Shown in pieces: positions 4,888 through 20,546 of a DNA stretch of 23,003 bases; the first letter of the stretch is position 1; every line of letters starts with the position of its first letter. Location: positions 1-23,003 of IMG/VR virus record IMGVR_UViG_3300021470_000006, one strand, 5' to 3'. The notes beneath the pieces are model-generated. The model saw only the letters and a list, made by a program, of their open reading frames with translations. It made no database searches and was not told where the DNA came from. This DNA comes from a virus. A program made the translations under genes and the position numbers.

Positions 4888-4911
4888 CGTCCGTCTCCTT
4901 GTTGTGGTTTG

Positions 4912-4926
4912 GTATCCAAACAATCA
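4912..4926 (-). promoter_or_regulatory. Stop-anchored box, copy 3
   Basis: Minus-strand TGATTGTTTGGATAC, beginning with the TGA stop of the gene at 4924-5223. It is followed by AAACCACAACAAGGAG, which includes the ribosome binding site for the gene starting at 4887. Confidence 0.6.
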
Positions 4927-5223
4927 GCCGTTGATTGCGGCGAGGCCCGCGTCAGTCAGGCGGAACCGCGAGTCGTTTTCCAGGTGGCTTCTGGTGATGC
5001 GAACCCTGCCGAAGTTGTAGGCGTAGGTGTGCTTCTCAGTCCGGGCCGGGCGAAGCACGGCGACCTCCAGTAGTCCGAGCCGCATAAGGGCGCAGTGCGT
5101 TCCGCTCCGCACCGATCCGTTGCGACCGGTCAGGCACGGGGCCGATCCGTCCATCGTGGCGTCCGCATAGGTGCGGAGGGCTTCCAGTTGAGTCTTGCTG
5201 ATTGTTGTGGCGTTGGTCATCAT
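4924..5223 (-). CDS. Possible winged-helix-like small protein (99 aa)
   Basis: The pattern SKTQLEALRTYAD ... TGRNGSVRSGTHCALMRLGLLEV ... SRFRLTDAGLAAING resembles small winged-helix proteins in which a helix pair is followed by a 'LTDAGLAAI' wing and final helix. That suggests DNA binding, but the match is by eye only. Two adjacent ATGs occur; the outer one (5223) has GGAG five bases upstream and the inner one (5220) eight bases. The leader holds a GC hairpin and box copy 4. Its own stop begins box copy 3. Confidence 0.65.
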   Translation of the reverse strand: MMTNATTISKTQLEALRTYADATMDGSAPCLTGRNGSVRSGTHCALMRLGLLEVAVLRPARTEKHTYAYNFGRVRITRSHLENDSRFRLTDAGLAAING

Positions 5224-5250: not shown

Positions 5251-5294
5251 GCCCCGCCGCACAGTGCGGCGGGGCTTGGGTATCCGAACAATCA
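5251..5294 (-). promoter_or_regulatory. Stop-anchored box copy 4 with leader hairpin
   Basis: The box at 5280-5294 reads TGATTGTTCGGATAC on the minus strand and begins with the TGA stop of the gene at 5292-5483. After a few bases comes an 11-bp GC stem (5251-5261 with 5265-5275) and then the leader of the gene starting at 5223. No T tract follows the hairpin, so it is not a typical terminator. Confidence 0.6.
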
Positions 5295-5483
5295 GCCCCA
5301 CGCCCCGTACAGGTCGTCGCAGAAAGAGCAGTACGCCTGCTCGTCAATCAGCTTGGCAAGCCTCGCCAGCCCGGCGGTCGTGATCCTCGCCGCCTCGTCG
5401 CCGGGGTTCGTGGCGAGGCCACGCAGCACGTCGCGGAGTTGGTCAACCGTCAGTGAGGCCATTCTGGTTTCAAGGGTCGTCAT
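5292..5483 (-). CDS. Hypothetical phage protein (63 aa)
   Basis: The start at 5483 has GGAG seven bases upstream, in the leader of promoter copy A. The product is mainly helical (SLTVDQLRDVLRGLA ... GLARLAKLIDEQAYCSFCDDLYG) with one C-x-x-C pair near the C-terminus. It is the first gene downstream of a strong promoter, so probably well expressed. Function unknown. The longer open frame upstream crosses the promoter and is rejected. Confidence 0.7.
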   Translation of the reverse strand: MTTLETRMASLTVDQLRDVLRGLATNPGDEAARITTAGLARLAKLIDEQAYCSFCDDLYGAWG

Positions 5484-5590
5484 CGTTCGTCTCCGTTTCG
5501 TTGTCCCTCGCGGTGTCCGCCGCGACTGATCCCATTCTAGGCTATCGTCCTTCCCATTGCAATAGGGTGAGGCAAAATTATTTTTGGGGG
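5481..5590 (-). repeat. Promoter-leader repeat, copy A
   Basis: About 110 bp, closely similar to 7685-7795, covering everything from the start codon back to just upstream of the -35 box. It includes the promoter, a short stem-loop at the predicted 5' end of the transcript (5508-5513 with 5520-5525), the GGAGACGAACG ribosome binding site region, and an AATTATTTTTGGGG tail. Copy A starts the 63-residue gene; copy B starts the amidoligase gene. Confidence 0.85.
5534..5562 (-). promoter_or_regulatory. Sigma70-type promoter A
   Basis: On the minus strand, TTGCAA (5557-5562) and TAGAAT (5534-5539) are 17 bases apart. The same arrangement is preserved in copy B. Transcription would begin near 5527, about 45 bases before the ATG at 5483. 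Confidence 0.75.
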
Positions 5591-5872: not shown

Positions 5873-6082
5873 ATGCTCAACACGTACCACTGCCCGAAGT
5901 GCTCCGCACTGCTTCACGCCACCGGCTCCATCACGATGGAAGGAGTTGCGTGTCCTGTCTTTCAATGCGACACCTGCGTCGTAACGAAGCCGATTTTTGG
6001 CGAGCCGTTTGAAGTCGCTGTGACGTTCGCGGTCAATCCACAGGGTCAACCGTTTGACCCCGTGGACGACACGCTGCTTTAG
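5873..6082 (+). CDS. Small zinc-ribbon-like protein (69 aa)
   Basis: One of only two plus-strand genes in the window. The product has a C-P-K-C pair near residue 7 and a Q-C-D-T-C pair near residue 33, with an extra cysteine at about 28: the two C-x-x-C knuckles of a zinc ribbon. The rest is beta-rich (FEVAVTFAVNPQGQPFDP). An in-frame ATG at 5861 is an alternative start; neither has a clear ribosome binding site. A TATGAT sequence at 5860-5865 could be a -10 element, which would make the transcript from 5873 nearly leaderless. The end overlaps the end of the amidotransferase gene by four bases, convergently. Such ribbons bind nucleic acid or protein; the target is unknown. Confidence 0.65.
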   Translation: MLNTYHCPKCSALLHATGSITMEGVACPVFQCDTCVVTKPIFGEPFEVAVTFAVNPQGQPFDPVDDTLL

Positions 6083-6711
6083 GCGTACTCCACGATCTCC
6101 CCCTCGGGGAACTCGCTCACGCGGCCCGGAAGCTCGAGCCTGAGCGACGCGAGGTAGTACGCGTTGCGAGTCTCGCCAACGTGGAGCGGTTGATCGTTTG
6201 CCCGCGTGGCAATGAGCCGGTCGGGCCACAAGGCCAGCATCGCAAACGGAGACCTGCCCATGGCCTCGCGTGCGGTCTGCGCGGCGCGGGCCATCGGCTT
6301 GCCGCGAAACTTCTGGAGCATCAGCCCCAGCACCTCGCTGTCACACTCGGTTTCCATCTTCAAGAGGTGCTTCGCCACGAGCGATCGGTAGTGGTGGATG
6401 ACGCCGTTGTGCACAACCCACGAGTCACCGCCGTCGTGCGGGTGATTGTTCGTGTTGGTGTCTGGATCGCCGTGCGTCGCGTAGCGGCAGTGCCCAACAA
6501 GCAGCCGCGCGTCCTTCGCCATCGCAAGCAAAGCGAGCGAGTCAACGATGCGGCCTGTCTGCTTGTAGCTGCGGAGCTTGCCGGTGCCGTCCACCCACGC
6601 GATGCCCCACGCGTGCGGGCCGCGGCTCATAGTGATGGTGGCGATCGACTTGATGACTGCGAGGTCGAGGGCGTTGTCACCCTTTGCAACGAATCCAAAA
6701 ATGCCGCACAT
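6079..6711 (-). CDS. Class II glutamine amidotransferase
   Basis: An N-terminal nucleophile (Ntn) hydrolase domain that frees ammonia from glutamine. The start MCGIFGF places the catalytic cysteine at residue 2. Further hallmarks in order are RGPHAWG near residue 30, GHCRYATHGDP and NNHP in the middle, VVHNGVIHHYRSL, then a TECDSEVLGLML segment matching the family's 'T-D-x-E' region. At 210 residues it is a stand-alone glutaminase with no synthase domain, so the ammonia must be used by a partner; the amidoligase encoded just upstream is the obvious candidate. The ATG at 6711 has AAAGGA eight bases upstream. The leader holds box copy 5 and a hairpin. Confidence 0.93.
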   Translation of the reverse strand: MCGIFGFVAKGDNALDLAVIKSIATITMSRGPHAWGIAWVDGTGKLRSYKQTGRIVDSLALLAMAKDARLLVGHCRYATHGDPDTNTNNHPHDGGDSWVVHNGVIHHYRSLVAKHLLKMETECDSEVLGLMLQKFRGKPMARAAQTAREAMGRSPFAMLALWPDRLIATRANDQPLHVGETRNAYYLASLRLELPGRVSEFPEGEIVEYA

Positions 6712-6737
6712 GGTTGAGTTCCTTTCGTGTGTTGTGG

Positions 6738-6781
6738 CCCCGGCGGCGATGTGCCGCCGGGGTTGGGTATCCGAATAATCA
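6738..6781 (-). promoter_or_regulatory. Stop-anchored box copy 5 with leader hairpin
   Basis: The box at 6767-6781 is TGATTATTCGGATAC on the minus strand, starting with the TGA stop of the amidoligase gene. It is followed by a 10-bp GC stem (6738-6747 with 6753-6762) and then CCACAACACACGAAAGGA, which carries the ribosome binding site of the amidotransferase gene. The unit matches copy 4 in layout. Confidence 0.65.
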
Positions 6782-7687
6782 GACGGTCGGTGCAGCGTCG
6801 TACTGCGTGGCAAGGTGGACAAGCCGCTTGCGGGCGGACTGGATCGTCGGGATGCCTTCGCCCTCAATCACGCCAAAAGACTTCTGGTAGGTGACCTGCC
6901 CGTCCTGCGAGACAACCGGAAAACCGTGAGCACCGCCACGCGTCAGCCAGCCAAGCGAAAAGAGCAGGCGAGTCGCCTCAACCACACCAGCGGTCGCACC
7001 CTCACCAAGTCCAAAGTTGGACTTTGAAGCCGGCCGAGTGCTGGCGTTCCACGCAGCCGACTTCTTGCTGACCAGTGCCTTCTCAGCAAGCCCGACGCAA
7101 AGCCGAACATACGCACAAATTTTGGTGGCGTTCAGCGACGCACCAAACACGCGGAACTCAACCGTGGGCTTTCTGGTTGCAAGGTTCAGCAGGTGGTAGC
7201 GGTCATTGCTGGCGGCGCGACGGGCGAGACGCTTGTTGCCGTACTGCTTCACCGACTTGCACCAGCAGGTGCGGTAGCGGCTGCCGGCACCTTGTTCACG
7301 CGACCGCGTGCCCGTTACGGCGTAGAGGGCCTTTTCGTGATTCGACACCAGCGAGATGAGTCGGCCAATGGCGGGCGTGTTCCGCATGTCAAAGCCAACG
7401 TGAACGTGCGTGCCGCACGAGGCGTTGACTTGGCCGCCGCGCCGCTTGATCTCGGCCACCACTTCGCAAACCTGACGCAACCCATCGGCACCCTTGAGGA
7501 CGGGCGAAACAAACTCGCACTTCACGCGGAGGTCGTGCGGGACAATGATGGAAGGATCGGAGTCGGCAAGCCAGCCAGCGGGGAGCCAGTCAACCTGCAC
7601 ACCGCGGCCGTGCGGGCCGGGGGTGACCGAACCAGCGGGCATGTGGGTTTCGATCTCGACGCCAAAGGTGAAGTCAGCAGCGTTCAT
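6779..7687 (-). CDS. Putative amidoligase (COOH-NH2 ligase, Amidoligase_2 type)
   Basis: Predicted ATP-dependent ligase joining a carboxyl group to an amine, of the glutamine-synthetase-like fold. Visible hallmarks: FGVEIET at residues 8-14 (metal-binding glutamates), ADSDPSI near 41-47, CEFVSPVLKG at 57-66, ASCGTHVHVGF at 90-100 (histidines), an arginine/tyrosine-rich SRYRTCWCKSVKQY segment near 137-150, and TVEFRVFGASLN at 176-187. At 302 residues it fits the family. It is the first gene of promoter copy B, with the start at 7687 and GGAG nine bases upstream, and is followed directly by the class II glutamine amidotransferase. The pair suggests synthesis or transfer of an amide on a peptide, cell-wall or phage protein target. 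The substrate cannot be read from sequence. Confidence 0.88.
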   Translation of the reverse strand: MNAADFTFGVEIETHMPAGSVTPGPHGRGVQVDWLPAGWLADSDPSIIVPHDLRVKCEFVSPVLKGADGLRQVCEVVAEIKRRGGQVNASCGTHVHVGFDMRNTPAIGRLISLVSNHEKALYAVTGTRSREQGAGSRYRTCWCKSVKQYGNKRLARRAASNDRYHLLNLATRKPTVEFRVFGASLNATKICAYVRLCVGLAEKALVSKKSAAWNASTRPASKSNFGLGEGATAGVVEATRLLFSLGWLTRGGAHGFPVVSQDGQVTYQKSFGVIEGEGIPTIQSARKRLVHLATQYDAAPTV

Positions 7688-7795
7688 CGTTCGTTTCTCC
7701 GTTTCGTTCTCAGCCGTGGTGTCCGCCACGACTGATCCCATCCTAGGCTATCGTCCGTTTCATTGCAATAGGGTGAGTCGAAATTCTTTTTGGGG
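7685..7795 (-). repeat. Promoter-leader repeat, copy B
   Basis: The partner of 5481-5590 and ahead of the amidoligase gene. It keeps the promoter, the CCCTATTGCAATG block, the GGATCAGTCG start region and the AACGAACGATG start codon context. The 5' stem-loop (7715-7719 with 7726-7730) has the same CGGACA loop as copy A but a changed base pair in the stem, indicating that the pairing is maintained. Confidence 0.85.
7740..7768 (-). promoter_or_regulatory. Sigma70-type promoter B
   Basis: On the minus strand, TTGCAA (7763-7768) and TAGGAT (7740-7745) are spaced by 17 bases. It would start a transcript near 7733 for the amidoligase-amidotransferase genes. Confidence 0.75.
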
Positions 7796-8788: not shown

Positions 8789-8823
8789 GATCAAGTGGCG
8801 GGGACAGGATTCCACCGCCGGGC

Positions 8824-8839
8824 GACACGGGCAGGAAGC
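8824..8839 (+). repeat. Inverted repeat upstream of integrase
   Basis: GACACGGGCAGGAAGC matches the reverse complement of 9756-9771 in 14 of 16 positions, with 11 in a row identical (GGGCAGGAAGC, 8829-8839). The pair brackets the integrase gene, so these may be integrase arm-type binding sites. Confidence 0.5.
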
Positions 8840-8869
8840 AAGAGGTATGAACTAAGTCTAGGAGACAGC

Positions 8870-9739
8870 ATGACCTTGTATGAATTGTTTCACGACCACT
8901 ACCGTCCGCTACGTTTGCGCGGGCGTAGCCTCAACACTGTGCGGCTTTATGGCTGCACAATCAGATCATTCAGCAAATGGCTACGCTACGAAGCCACCGT
9001 CGATGACCTGACTGACCTGACGCTTTCCCGCTTCCTCGACTACCGCGCTTCAATCCGAAGCCCGTACACAGTCGAAAAAGAACGCAGCCAGTTGTGCAGC
9101 TTGGCGCGGTTCGCCGCGGATCGCCGGCTTATCCAGATGAGGCCGGAAGTTCCGCCTGCCCCATTGCCCGAGCGTGAACCGCAAGCGTGGAGCATTGATT
9201 CTCTGCACGCTTTGATGCGGTCGGCCGCTGCCACACGCGGCACCGTTGGCACCGTTGCCGCGTCGGTGTTTTGGGTCTCGCTGATCTCAGTGCTGTGGGA
9301 GACAGCAGAGCGCATCGGTGCTGTCATGGCGTGCTCCCCCGGCGACTTCACCGACCCGCACCTTCTCGTGCGTGCCGAGTACCGCAAAGGCGGGAAGCGT
9401 GATCGGGCGTATCGGCTGACTCCGAAGACGTGCGAGCTCGTGCGACAAACTGCGGGGGCACAGCGTATTTTCTGCTGGCCTCAAAACAAAACCTACCTGT
9501 GGCGACGATATGCCGACGTCGTGGCACGGGCGGGGCTAGGGCACGGCCGGCACCTCGCGTTCCACATGCTGCGCCGCTCGGCAGCGTCGCACTTCCACGC
9601 TCTCGGCGGTGACGCCCAGGCACTGCTCGATCACCGGAACCCGCAGATCACGCAGCGATGGTATTTGGCGCGATGGCTGACGGATAAAAACCCGCAGCCG
9701 TGCGACGTGCTGCCGTCGCTAGGTCAAGGCCTCAACTAG
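8870..9739 (+). CDS. int: Tyrosine recombinase (phage integrase)
   Basis: Integrates and excises the phage genome by site-specific recombination. The N-terminal part (about residues 1-95: LYELFHDHYRPLRLRGRSLNTVRLYGCTIRSFSKWL) is a core-binding SAM-like domain. In the catalytic domain, the first arginine is in WETAERIGAVMA, the beta-hairpin lysine in RAEYRKGGKRD, H-x-x-R in FHMLRRSAASH, the second histidine in LLDHRNPQIT and the tyrosine nucleophile in QRWYLARW. All key residues are present, so it should be active. At 289 residues the length is normal. The ATG at 8870 is chosen because of GGAGA five bases upstream. It is one of two plus-strand genes and is flanked by inverted repeats. Confidence 0.95.
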   Translation: MTLYELFHDHYRPLRLRGRSLNTVRLYGCTIRSFSKWLRYEATVDDLTDLTLSRFLDYRASIRSPYTVEKERSQLCSLARFAADRRLIQMRPEVPPAPLPEREPQAWSIDSLHALMRSAAATRGTVGTVAASVFWVSLISVLWETAERIGAVMACSPGDFTDPHLLVRAEYRKGGKRDRAYRLTPKTCELVRQTAGAQRIFCWPQNKTYLWRRYADVVARAGLGHGRHLAFHMLRRSAASHFHALGGDAQALLDHRNPQITQRWYLARWLTDKNPQPCDVLPSLGQGLN

Positions 9740-16557: not shown

Positions 16558-17400
16558 CTAGTTCGGTATCTGTGTAAATGCGCCGTTGAATGGAAGCTCG
16601 TTGTAGACCTTGAACGTGAGCATGTCTGGCGGCGAGCCGTTTGTTTTCGCTACGCCGTTTGATAAAGCCGACGGGTCGCTGACCGGCTCCATGTTTGCGT
16701 CAAGAATCTTTTTCTTCCTGCCGCCTACAACCTGCTGGTAGCCAATGTCCCACAGCTTGAGGTTCCAACCCTCAGGCCGATACGCAAGCTCGACCGACAC
16801 CGACCAATACGACACGTCCTGCCCGCCAACTTGCTCAACCTCGCGTTGCCCGCTGATGCCCTGACATTTCACGCTGCCGGCTGGCATCCCCGACCACGAG
16901 TCAGAGTTCACCGCATTGACGTACTGCATGGCAATGAAGCGTGGGAAGCTTTGCCGACTGCCTGTGATCTGGATGTGCCACGACGAGTATTCTTTTTCGG
17001 CACCTTCCAGCGGGTCGCCCGCGGTGTTGACGATAAACGCGGGGCTGCTGAACCCTTGGTTGTAGTGCAGGATCGCCGGCCCGCTCGCCACGCTGCCACT
17101 GAACGTGAACTTATCCGCGCGATCCCACGGGGCAAGCTGCTTGTCCTCGGGCTTCACGAGGTCGTACGTGAATTCCACCTTGTAGTGGAGCGGGTCGCCG
17201 TCCTGCTGCGCGTTGATCTCGGTGCAGTACACCGGAAACTCGGGATGCTGGTCGAGCCAGTTGATCCCGCAGACTTGGGCAATAGCGGAAACGGAGGTCG
17301 TCGGATCGTCAACCGTCACGACGAACGTGCGTTTGCATTTCACGTTGCTGCCAAACGTCTGCTGCCCGCCGCGACCGTCGCACACTTCGATGTATCTCAT
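16558..17400 (-). CDS. Phage minor tail protein (280 aa)
   Basis: A beta-rich protein directly after the tape measure gene, overlapping its stop (ATGA), which is the usual place of the distal tail or baseplate hub protein. Segments such as RTFVVTVDDPTTSVSAIAQVCGI, YKVEFTYDLV, WHIQITGSRQSFPRFIAMQYVNAVNS and YWSVSVELAYRPEGWNLKLWDIGY resemble tail proteins that compare a position with a bound surface, but the family is not certain. Position gives the main support. Confidence 0.7.
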   Translation of the reverse strand: MRYIEVCDGRGGQQTFGSNVKCKRTFVVTVDDPTTSVSAIAQVCGINWLDQHPEFPVYCTEINAQQDGDPLHYKVEFTYDLVKPEDKQLAPWDRADKFTFSGSVASGPAILHYNQGFSSPAFIVNTAGDPLEGAEKEYSSWHIQITGSRQSFPRFIAMQYVNAVNSDSWSGMPAGSVKCQGISGQREVEQVGGQDVSYWSVSVELAYRPEGWNLKLWDIGYQQVVGGRKKKILDANMEPVSDPSALSNGVAKTNGSPPDMLTFKVYNELPFNGAFTQIPN

Positions 17401-20400
17401 ATCTTCACGACCTCTTCCTCGCTCAGGACAGTCACGACGCTTTCAAGGAGCCTCGACTGCTTCTTCATCTCGGCCAGTTGTTTCTTCGTGGGATCGTCTT
17501 GGCCGCGCAGCAGACGGAAGAACGTGCTGGCCCCTTCGCTGCTATTCACGCTGACGGCTTGGTTCGCGCGGCGGTCAGGTGCGTTGTTCTTTTCCGTCTT
17601 CTCCGCGATGTCGTCTACGCTCGACTCAAGCTCGGTGCGGAGCGTGCCGACCCGCTCCTTGAACTGCGCGGGGTCGATGACGCCGTTGTTCAAGGCGTCT
17701 TGCAGCTTCGCCCGATCTTCGCGGAACTTATCAGCGGGTGACTTCTCGCCGCCGCCCGGCAGGCTATCGGCTGCCTTCTTGCGTACTTGCTCCTTCGCTT
17801 TCTTTTTCTCGTCGTCAGTCAGCGTGCCGTTGTCGTCAATCGCCTTGAGTTCCTCGGCAATCTTCGCCCCCTCGGTCTTGAGCGAGTCACGAATCTTTTC
17901 GGCAAACTTCATGTCGTCGCCGACTCGCTTGAGTTCTTCGTTCATCGCGTCGGCAGCCTCGGCCATCTGGGCACGAGCGGCGTCGGGATCGATCAGCCCC
18001 TTGTCGAGTTTGTCCTTGATCTCCTGCGCGGCCGTGGCAAACTCAACCTTCGCAAGCAGAGCCGCGGCACCAAGCTCCTTGCCAGCACCGGCTGATTTCT
18101 TGATCTCAGCAGTGATGTCCTCGGACGCCTTCTTCTGATCCTCTTGGATTTTCTTGAGTGCCATCCCCGCCGGTGTCTGCGCCACGTAGGCGTCAGTAAT
18201 CTTGTTTGCGGCCTCGGCACGCTGCTCGGCGGTGAGCAGCCCTTGTCGCTCAAGTTCGTAGAGTTCGTGCACCTGTGCGGTCATCTTCTCGTACGGCGAG
18301 AGCAAGCCTTCTTTGATCGACTTGGCTCGATCAATGGCTTGCTTCTGACGTTCGGCCTCAGCGTCCTTGAGTTGCTTTTGCTTTTCGAGTTGCTCCTCGA
18401 TAGCCTTCGTGTCCTGCCCGCCGGTCTGCGCGGGGACCGAAAAGCTCATGCCAAAAAACTTAGCAACGGCCTCGGCCTTCTTGAACAGATACTCGAGGAA
18501 CTGAGCAACGGGCGTCACGACAACTTGCAGGATGGCCGATATGCCACGAATCATATTGGCAATCACCATACCGGCGACACGAAACGCAACGCCAAAGATG
18601 CCGCCCAATGACTTGAGCAGCGGGCCGATCTCGGCACTCATGTCAGCGAACGCTCCGATAGCAATCGCCACGCCCTCGGCGATACCCGCGAAAAGGTCTG
18701 TGAACGGTGCAAGCAGCGTCTTGCCAAGCCGGGACGATGCTGCTGCCGTTGCGTCGAACGCATCGTCAAGACGTTGGAACGATGACACGTCCATGTCGCT
18801 CATCGTGCCGCCCAGCAAGTCGATCTGTGCCCGTGCCTCGTCGAGGCCAGCCAGCCCGGCAATCGCATCGGCACCACCCTTGCCAAACAGCTTGAGTGCG
18901 AGTGCATTCCGATGTGCCGAGTCTTCCATGCCGTTGAGTGCGTTGGCGGCTTTCTCGATCAACTGCTCGGGGCTGCTGCTCTGAAGTTCTTCCTGCGAGA
19001 TTCCAAGCTGTGCGAACGCCTCGGCCTGCTCCTTCGCACCATTGCGAGCGGCATCAGTCGCTACCGAGAACTTGCGGGTGGCCTTGGCAAGATCCTCAAT
19101 TCCCATACCGGCGTTTTCCGCCGCAAGCTTGATGACCTCAAGCTCCTGATAGCTCACGCCCATCTGCGTCGCAAGCTGCGAGTTCCGTTCGACCTCGGCA
19201 CCAGTGGCACCAAGGGCAGCGGCGAGCTTTGTCGCACCGACCACGACCGCGGTGATGATGGCCCCAATGACCATCAGCTGCGGAGCAATTGCCATGAGCG
19301 ACGACCCGCCGGACGCGAACGCATTGCTTAGTCCGCCGGCAATGTCGCTGAACATTGTTTTCAGCCCGGCACCGAAACCGCCGCTGAATCCAGCCATCAT
19401 CTTCTTCATGCCGCCGCCGAACGTGTCGAGAGCACGGGCCGCTGCGCCGATCGGGCCGGGCATCCCGCCGAACGCCTGCCCAAGCGTCTGGGCCTGCGGC
19501 ACAGTGCCCGCCAACGCGTCTTCGGCTTTCTTGCTCGCGCGGGCAAACGTCTCCTGCGAGATCGCACCCTGCGATAGCATCGTCTTAAGCTCGGCAAGCT
19601 CTTGGTCGTATCGCTCGGTGGCAGTGAGGTTTGATTGCGTCACGGCCTTGCCACGCTCCATCGCAGCAGCGAGAGCCTTCACCGCCGGATCAGCGGCTTG
19701 TGTCGCGCGGGTGAAAGTCTCCTGCGAGATTGCACCCTGCTCCAGCATCGTCTTTAGACTTGCAAGCTCTTGGTCGTACTTCTCCTGCTCGGTCAAGTTT
19801 GCCTGCGTCACCGACTTGCCACGCTCCATCGCAGCGGCGAGAGCTTGGGCGGCGGGGTCAGCCGCAGCCATCGCGGCCCTGACGTGCTCCACCGACGCCG
19901 CGTAGTTCTCGTCGTCAACGATGCCCATCTCTAGTGCGGCATCGAGCGACCGCAGCTGCGCCTCGTACTTCGCCGTCGCCGGCTCCGATCCTGCCATGAT
20001 CGCCCGCGACTCTTGCAGCACGCGATTGAATTTCTGCTGGTCTGTCTCCGTGCCGTTGATCGCGCCGGGCAGCGTGGCGATCGCGTTGCGGTACTGCTCT
20101 GCCGAAACCTTGCCCGAGAGAAAGTCCGCACGATTCTCCGCGAGGCCAGACCGCAGCCGCTCAAGCGCTGGAGTCGCTGCCTTGGCCGCTGCGACGACGT
20201 GGCCCTCGGCCTCGGCAAGTTGTTCGGCAGACATCCCCGCGGCCGCCTGCGAGCCTCGTAGGGCCTCCAGGCCTGACTTGATCCGGTCGGCTTCGCTGAC
20301 GGTGGTCTTGAAGCGAGTCTGCAACCGGCCGTACGACGTGCCAAACGAGTCAACGCTTGTCGTGCCGTTGGCGAGGCCAGCCGCCAGCGTCGCCATCTTC

Positions 20401-20546
20401 GCTGCAAACTCGCTCTGCGACGCGGCGGTGCGCTTCGCCGACGCTGCAAAGTTGCCGAACCCGCTGACGGATTGACCGATGGCACCAAGCAAGCCCGACG
20501 CCGATGCCGTGAACGTCGCCCTGACCGAACCAATTGCGTCAGCCAT
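17397..20546 (-). CDS. Tail tape measure protein (1049 aa)
   Basis: Sets tail length and is ejected ahead of the DNA. It is long, alanine-rich and helical, with no stop. The N-terminal 340 residues are coiled repeats, including a 56-residue repeat in tandem (231-286 and 287-342). Hydrophobic segments at about 418-440 (APQLMVIGAIITAVVVGA) and 648-684 may insert in membranes. The region 700-1000 is charged coiled coil (EKQKQLKDAEAERQKQ). By the usual rule of about 0.15 nm per residue, the tail would be around 155 nm. The ATG at 20546 overlaps the frameshift gene stop. No lysozyme or peptidase motif is visible. Confidence 0.93.
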   Translation of the reverse strand: MADAIGSVRATFTASASGLLGAIGQSVSGFGNFAASAKRTAASQSEFAAKMATLAAGLANGTTSVDSFGTSYGRLQTRFKTTVSEADRIKSGLEALRGSQAAAGMSAEQLAEAEGHVVAAAKAATPALERLRSGLAENRADFLSGKVSAEQYRNAIATLPGAINGTETDQQKFNRVLQESRAIMAGSEPATAKYEAQLRSLDAALEMGIVDDENYAASVEHVRAAMAAADPAAQALAAAMERGKSVTQANLTEQEKYDQELASLKTMLEQGAISQETFTRATQAADPAVKALAAAMERGKAVTQSNLTATERYDQELAELKTMLSQGAISQETFARASKKAEDALAGTVPQAQTLGQAFGGMPGPIGAAARALDTFGGGMKKMMAGFSGGFGAGLKTMFSDIAGGLSNAFASGGSSLMAIAPQLMVIGAIITAVVVGATKLAAALGATGAEVERNSQLATQMGVSYQELEVIKLAAENAGMGIEDLAKATRKFSVATDAARNGAKEQAEAFAQLGISQEELQSSSPEQLIEKAANALNGMEDSAHRNALALKLFGKGGADAIAGLAGLDEARAQIDLLGGTMSDMDVSSFQRLDDAFDATAAASSRLGKTLLAPFTDLFAGIAEGVAIAIGAFADMSAEIGPLLKSLGGIFGVAFRVAGMVIANMIRGISAILQVVVTPVAQFLEYLFKKAEAVAKFFGMSFSVPAQTGGQDTKAIEEQLEKQKQLKDAEAERQKQAIDRAKSIKEGLLSPYEKMTAQVHELYELERQGLLTAEQRAEAANKITDAYVAQTPAGMALKKIQEDQKKASEDITAEIKKSAGAGKELGAAALLAKVEFATAAQEIKDKLDKGLIDPDAARAQMAEAADAMNEELKRVGDDMKFAEKIRDSLKTEGAKIAEELKAIDDNGTLTDDEKKKAKEQVRKKAADSLPGGGEKSPADKFREDRAKLQDALNNGVIDPAQFKERVGTLRTELESSVDDIAEKTEKNNAPDRRANQAVSVNSSEGASTFFRLLRGQDDPTKKQLAEMKKQSRLLESVVTVLSEEEVVKI
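19521..19856 (-). repeat. Tandem 168-bp repeat in tape measure gene
   Basis: Two in-frame units (19689-19856 and 19521-19688), each coding 56 residues with the signature LAAAMERGK...YDQEL...LKTML-x-QGAISQETF. By eye the protein copies agree at 42 of 56 positions. A degenerate unit precedes them (YEAQLRSLDAALEMGIVDDENY), and further relics lie near residues 845 and 940. Confidence 0.8.

Follow-up and report, generated by a model that had tools for sequence, protein, structure and literature searches.

A virus genome record of 23,003 bases (IMG/VR record IMGVR_UViG_3300021470_000006, hereafter the window, whose numbering is used for all coordinates) carries on its minus strand a gene for an amidoligase followed by one for a stand-alone class II glutamine amidotransferase (GATase). 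The two almost certainly form one functional module, which probably builds or trims an unusual amide bond on a molecule of the host or the virus. The best explanation, to which we give a probability of about 0.4, is that the pair is prophage-borne cargo that amidates a host envelope peptide, using ATP and ammonia supplied by the GATase. Modules of this kind are already known; what this locus and its relatives add is a version with just two genes, a zinc-ribbon gene that goes with them, and the swapping of the partner that follows the amidoligase. The two genes are as follows.

6779..7687, minus strand: amidoligase, a glutamine synthetase (GS)-like carboxylate-amine ligase of the Amidoligase_2 family (302 aa; ATG at 7687; PF12224)
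6079..6711, minus strand: stand-alone class II GATase, an N-terminal nucleophile (Ntn) hydrolase with Cys2 (210 aa; PF13522)

The preliminary description of the window, made from its letters, had placed both genes side by side on a common strand behind a promoter termed B. Both open reading frames (ORFs) were confirmed, 67 nt apart on the minus strand, and all the motifs quoted for the two enzymes are present in them. Linkage was assessed from either side by scans that retrieve the closest relatives, and close kin remain even among the distinct loci. The amidoligase-first scan of viral contigs yielded 80 loci, with a GATase in 48 of them plus the window, and in 76 of the 80 loci from the GATase-first scan a codirectional amidoligase gene lies immediately upstream. 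The four exceptions to the latter comprise one contig that starts at the GATase and three loci without an amidoligase in about 5 to 6 kb. On a tree of 135 distinct amidoligase sequences, the clade of the window has 73 members, 71 of them with enough flanking sequence, and all 71 of these sequence-distinct members have a GATase. In this clade, 13 to 135 nt separate the two genes in most cases, and about 370 to 800 nt where an extra gene is inserted. The two-way counts thus contradict the notion that related phages carry either gene alone with equal frequency.

The family proposed for the amidoligase was borne out by profile searches, which returned Amidoligase_2 (PF12224) at E 1.8e-23 and 84.1 bits, above the curated cutoff of 22, and phrog_2443 ("amidoligase enzyme") at E 4.6e-25. 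Residues T7, F8, G9, E11, E13, D44, E58, H94, H96, R163, Y164, N168, E177, and R179 are invariant in 57 aligned amidoligases. GxExE, HxH, and ExR serve glutamine synthetases as metal-, nucleotide-, and substrate-binding motifs; the GS-type residues ExE (E11/E13), HxH (H94/H96), and ExR (E177/R179) are all kept in 57/57 amidoligases. The AlphaFold2 model (pLDDT 92.9) matched glutamine synthetases over 214 aligned residues (VIA Z 13.2; root mean square deviation, 3.8) and the carboxylate-amine ligase YbdK (VIA Z 13.0), and PafA and Dop, GS-fold enzymes that act on a protein tag, were also among the structural matches. The amidoligase profile had no match among PDB sequences, and the fold assignment therefore rests on structure comparison. 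Comparison of the window with its nearest relatives gave ratios of nonsynonymous to synonymous change (pN/pS) of 0.35 to 0.41, and the gene is thus under purifying selection. We conclude that the protein is a GS-fold, ATP-dependent ligase with an intact active site.

Similarly, the class II assignment of the second enzyme agreed with its match to GATase_6 (PF13522; E 1.2e-10; 42 bits, above the curated cutoff of 27) and with that to phrog_14519 ("glutamine amidotransferase"; E 6.5e-22). A 262-aa ORF reaching 6867 is a TTG extension of this gene; its start was set at the ATG at 6711, where the conserved MCGIFGF begins, because homologs start at MCG. Residues C2, R76, T79, G81, H90-P91, H101-N102-G103, and D124 are invariant in 32 GATases, and the glutamine-site residues of class II enzymes (N-terminal Cys, Arg, Asn-Gly, and Asp) are all kept as C2, R76, N102-G103, and D124. 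A loss of catalytic residues was looked for in the alignments of both enzymes (57 amidoligases and 32 GATases), and none was found. The AlphaFold2 model (pLDDT 94.1) matched the folds of GlmS (VIA Z 25), PurF (24), and EgtC (21.4), and the sequence score was far lower with EgtC than with GlmS or PurF. The protein shares the fold of EgtC, but its 36.2 bits against TIGR03442 (NCBIfam, 4e-9) lie below the equivalog cutoff of 218.65; at 210 aa, with no second domain and with scores far below the equivalog cutoffs, it is not a GlmS, PurF, or AsnB holoenzyme either. An aromatic residue (W, Y, or F) follows the substrate-binding Arg in 67/67 clade GATases in which the motif was found, the same position as in the HTRWATHG of GlmS, where the Trp gates the ammonia channel; GlmS and PurF both channel ammonia. 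The pN/pS values (0.26 to 0.40, window versus nearest relatives) again show purifying selection, and the protein is a stand-alone class II glutaminase with an intact active site. The preliminary description was right that this glutaminase has no synthase domain; its addition that an ammonia acceptor is required goes too far, because stand-alone class II GATases of the EgtC type are gamma-glutamyl hydrolases that cleave gamma-glutamyl bonds, and next to related amidoligases a gamma-glutamyl cyclotransferase or a peptidase C26 stands in the place of the GATase.

Downstream of the pair lies a third, small gene.

5873..6082, plus strand: small zinc-ribbon protein, CxxC...CxxC (70 aa; convergent with the GATase gene, the stop codons overlapping)

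This protein has the form CPKC...CDxC, with the four Cys invariant in the alignment of homologs, and its pN/pS against the window copy is 0.20 to 0.45. It accompanies the pair in 19 loci, and a zinc-ribbon-first scan, which used a subset of the alignment, found both enzymes in 16/16 loci, mostly on the same contigs as the 19. In L005, L006, and L208 (L-numbers denote the loci of relatives) it is encoded in the same direction as the two enzymes, and so it is not a shadow ORF, although in the window it lies on the opposite strand. A profile search did not find it in 16 pair-carrying virus records; that search had no positive control of its own, but the profile does detect the gene among Planctomycetota. 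Given this absence, the zinc ribbon looks accessory rather than obligatory. No family claimed it in family profile searches, the lysine-biosynthesis protein profile reaching only E 0.22. A LysW-like amino-group carrier was considered and rejected: carriers of that type have a conserved C-terminal glutamate as attachment site, and the C-terminal residue of 19 homologs varies (L, R, G, V, P, Q, N, D, F, and I). A gamma-glutamyl cyclotransferase, put forward earlier as a conserved third component, was likewise discarded as a constant third gene for the clade of the window, being absent from the window and from most members; the zinc ribbon tracks the pair instead. The parts seen of the literature on such pairs make no mention of a zinc ribbon alongside them.

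The noncoding elements around the pair are the following.

7738..7772, minus strand: sigma-70-like promoter of the pair (promoter B), with -35 TTGCAA at 7763-7768, a 17-nt spacer, and -10 TAGGAT at 7740-7745
7710..7735, minus strand: leader hairpin/inverted repeat between the promoter and the amidoligase start, core CGTGGCGGACACCACG (RNA fold z -3.35)
6738..6762, minus strand: intergenic hairpin between the amidoligase stop and the GATase start (RNA fold z -4.96)
5532..5566, minus strand: second copy of the promoter module of the pair, downstream of it (repeat and pattern search)

Phylogenetic footprinting supports the claim that the operon has its own promoter: at the position of promoter B, the relatives L002, L003, L004, and L006 show TTGACA/G, 17 nt, and TATAAT, after which come a conserved inverted repeat resembling GCGGCGGACACCGC, GGAG as ribosome site, and the start. 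In the window, promoter B lies inside one copy (7696-7795) of a 100-nt repeat, which is 87% identical to the other copy (5490-5589). The inverted repeat of this module (CGYGGCGGACACCRCG) shows a compensatory T-A for C-G change between the window copies, and its core is conserved in relatives. The leader copy before the amidoligase folds better than shuffled sequences, whereas the other copy does not (z -0.31). This inverted repeat may be a repressor operator or an RNA element. Within the operon, the intergenic hairpin follows a leader motif, CTGATTRTTCGGATACCCAA, at 6763-6782, which stands at the equivalent position in L002, L003, and L004 and recurs before other genes of the phage and its relatives, a repetition not expected by chance. 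As an intergenic leader on the minus strand, CTGATTGTTCGGATACCCAA was noted at 4908-4927, 5276-5295, and 6763-6782, as well as in L002 to L004 and L006; the TGA of the 6763 copy is the amidoligase stop codon.

The pair is adjoined by small helix-turn-helix genes and an integrase gene.

8795..9739, plus strand: phage integrase (PF00589, E 4.6e-7; phrog_1, E 1.4e-25)

Several close relatives keep integrase homologs near the pair. The earlier remark that the two genes do not sit with structural genes holds only for the lineage of the window; elsewhere in its clade, terminase and portal genes neighbor the pair. The three best matches among bacterial genomes are planctomycete contigs (Planctomycetia, Planctomycetaceae, and Gemmataceae), and in each of them the GATase adjoins the amidoligase. 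The virus thus probably infects planctomycetes, an assignment based on contigs of metagenome-assembled genomes, which can hold stray phage sequence. The phage-type GATase (E below 1e-85) occurs in 2/392 Planctomycetota genomes (E 3e-93 and 8e-89), the remaining matches starting at E 3e-36 with GlmS-like ORF lengths, mostly 600 to 680 aa; the zinc ribbon occurs in one of the 392, which is one of these two. Since so few genomes have this GATase, the pair is mobile cargo and not a host gene. It recurs in planctomycete-linked phages, and our literature search found little phage work on planctomycetes. Rfam, tRNA, and PADLOC defense-system searches returned nothing relevant, and no DNA-level similarity of the region to any annotated phage was found.

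Several papers on phage amidoligase/GATase pairs cite a 2009 analysis by Iyer et al., and in the portions of this literature at hand the function of these genes has only been guessed since that year. The pairing is on record in phiEco32/LUZ24-like and other phages: it is described in LUZ24-like phages (PMC3890496, PMC3517423), in OM43 phages (PMC10580990), and in PSA-HP1 and its relatives, there within a so-called peptidoglycan modification cassette (PMC5498523). The phiEco32/LUZ24/PSA-HP1 cassette is read by the authors as peptidoglycan modification against superinfection (PMC5498523, PMC10580990, PMC11318856), an idea that a Clostridium prophage study repeats for an amidoligase with a cyclotransferase (PMC11318856). 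This cassette comprises a PF14395 COOH-NH2 ligase, Amidoligase_2, a class II GATase, an ATP-grasp protein, and a gamma-glutamyl cyclotransferase. The window resembles it in that the class II GATase gene comes directly after that of Amidoligase_2, as in tf_21/tf_22 of phage tf and in Alcaligenes phage QDWS535, whose operons were checked directly. However, the cassette GATase has ~470 to 530 aa, unlike the 210-aa glutaminase of the window, and the amidoligases of the window and the cassette sit on separate long branches of the tree. The PF14395 ligase was not found in 12 related virus records, which may be fragments (the phage tf record served as positive control), nor was a gamma-glutamyl cyclotransferase found in the window; with these two components not found, and with no profile search made for ATP-grasp, the locus is not a member of that cassette. 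Phage-ZRK32 of a deep-sea planctomycete has an amidoligase and a glutamine amidotransferase, for which a role in nitrogen metabolism was proposed (PMC10945688); like the window it is planctomycete linked, a likeness drawn from gene descriptions, and it additionally has a glutathione synthase and a gamma-glutamylcyclotransferase.

According to the explanation that we favor, the GATase would hydrolyze glutamine at Cys2 and hand the ammonia to the amidoligase, which would activate a substrate carboxylate with ATP as an acyl phosphate and turn it into an amide. MurT has a Mur-ligase fold and GatD is a class I GATase. Under this explanation, MurT-GatD, a ligase with a separate glutaminase that amidates peptidoglycan (PMC3267633), would thus be an analogous system only. 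The most likely target would be a host cell-envelope peptide, either a peptidoglycan stem or a surface peptide, modified by the prophage or in an early stage of infection, with the putative outcome that competing phages adsorb less well or that lysis is timed; the zinc-ribbon protein would act as an accessory, a recruiter of the target or a regulator, dispensable in some members. Transfer of ammonia from the GATase to the amidoligase has an even chance in our estimation, and the choice of the cell envelope as target is tentative. Several observations weigh against this explanation. The amidoligase model (residues 1-302) covers only the C-terminal catalytic domain of GS (GS residues about 117-430), and the enzyme hence lacks the N-terminal domain, which in GS helps to bind ammonium. 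The fold of the GATase is also a good match to EgtC, a gamma-glutamyl hydrolase. No experimental demonstration of the function of phage amidoligase/GATase genes, or of an envelope target, was found in the parts of the literature consulted. The slot after the amidoligase is not always filled by the same enzyme: it holds a divergent class II GATase in Bacteroidales loci, mostly a gamma-glutamyl cyclotransferase (PF06094) in Bacillota and gut-phage loci, and a peptidase C26 (PF07722; E about 2e-45) in L057 (8865-9491) and L058 (8882-9511), where in the latter the gene overlaps that of the amidoligase by 4 nt. The 135 distinct loci include 90 with a GATase only, 19 with a cyclotransferase only, 9 with both, 3 with C26 only (the peptidase of L061 lies about 5 kb from the amidoligase), 1 with a GATase and C26, 7 with none, and 6 that are cut short; on the tree, the label GATase only changes 15 times and that of cyclotransferase only 7 times. 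The 7 loci, all with enough flank, show no partner of any of the three types for 6 kb; outside the clade of the window, a partner is therefore not universal. All three types attack gamma-glutamyl bonds, and a cyclotransferase is no ammonia donor to its partner.

This partner swap is the main argument for a ligase/hydrolase arrangement and makes it a serious and close rival, if a somewhat unlikely one: the amidoligase would join an amine to a gamma-glutamyl (or similar) group, which the "GATase" would remove, with no transfer of ammonia. GS-superfamily ligases are paired with gamma-glutamyl hydrolases in EgtA/EgtC and PuuA/PuuD, which together with BtrJ/BtrG offer protect-deprotect parallels. 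Occupation of the slot by three unrelated types that cleave such bonds (GATase, GGACT as in L076, and C26), the 19/135 loci with a cyclotransferase only and the seven changes of that label, the resemblance of the GATase to EgtC, below the family cutoff in sequence and at Z 21.4 in fold, and the match of the amidoligase to YbdK would all fit this arrangement. On the other hand, the GATases of the clade have the GlmS-type aromatic residue after the Arg and score far better with GlmS and PurF, so that despite the common Ntn fold the window enzyme is nearer to these than to EgtC in sequence; the GATase and the cyclotransferase occur together in 9 loci, LUZ24-like operons included, and hence are not strict substitutes. 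Profile searches of the window proteins recognized no ergothioneine or polyamine genes near the pair. The swap renders the choice between an ammonia donor and a gamma-glutamyl hydrolase testable, and the two-gene version is easy to express and assay.

Modification of a phage or host protein, a nucleotide, or a DNA-linked amino acid, with the zinc ribbon recruiting the target or being it, is unlikely. Tracking of the pair by the zinc-ribbon gene despite its flipped orientation, the position beside terminase and portal in parts of the clade, and the structural matches to PafA and Dop point in this direction, but the 16 pair-carrying records in which the zinc ribbon was not found argue against it, and no structural or DNA-modification neighbor is common to the clade. 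We regard as very unlikely a three-part system in which the zinc ribbon would be the carrier or substrate, with an amine or amino acid conjugated to it by the amidoligase and with the GATase giving ammonia or removing the group; if true, such a system would be the viral equivalent of pupylation or of amino-acid chemistry on carrier proteins. Auxiliary nitrogen metabolism, the role proposed for Phage-ZRK32, in which the genes would help the host to build nitrogen into amino acids, is highly improbable: a glutaminase feeding a specialized amidoligase brings no net nitrogen gain, and in the sections at hand the growth effect of Phage-ZRK32 is not linked to these genes through deletion (PMC10945688). 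That the two are chance neighbors is scarcely credible; phage genomes are mosaic, and three GATase-first loci show no amidoligase for at least 5 kb upstream, but the 71/71 and 76/80 linkage, the constant order, and the recurrence in several phage backgrounds already contradict it.

Further genes were observed around the pair in relatives. An unnamed ORF of ~150 aa (c8) lies between or after the two genes in many loci and is absent from the window; examples are L013 8757-9266, L014 6120-6698, L016 8903-9397, and L074 7845-8270. A zinc-protease-like HEFGH/HEFAH motif is present in 4/15 of its members and lost in the others, and Pfam and PHROG searches with two members gave no match. Just upstream of the amidoligase, L042 to L044 and L038, a separate phage group, encode a small conserved protein (67 to 71 aa, MTIYTAELE...; e.g., L044 7698-7913). 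A 420-aa protein near the pair in L009 (7519-8781, minus strand) belongs to a cluster present in 22 paired loci; its matches are phrog_11143 and an ABC-type ATPase profile, with acetyltransferase-like ones in the C-terminal half. Finally, the tape measure protein of the window (17397-20546, minus strand) contains internal repeats of about 35 to 45 aa (QELAxLKTMLxQGAISQETFxRA) with matches to the SHOCT and GvpG profiles.

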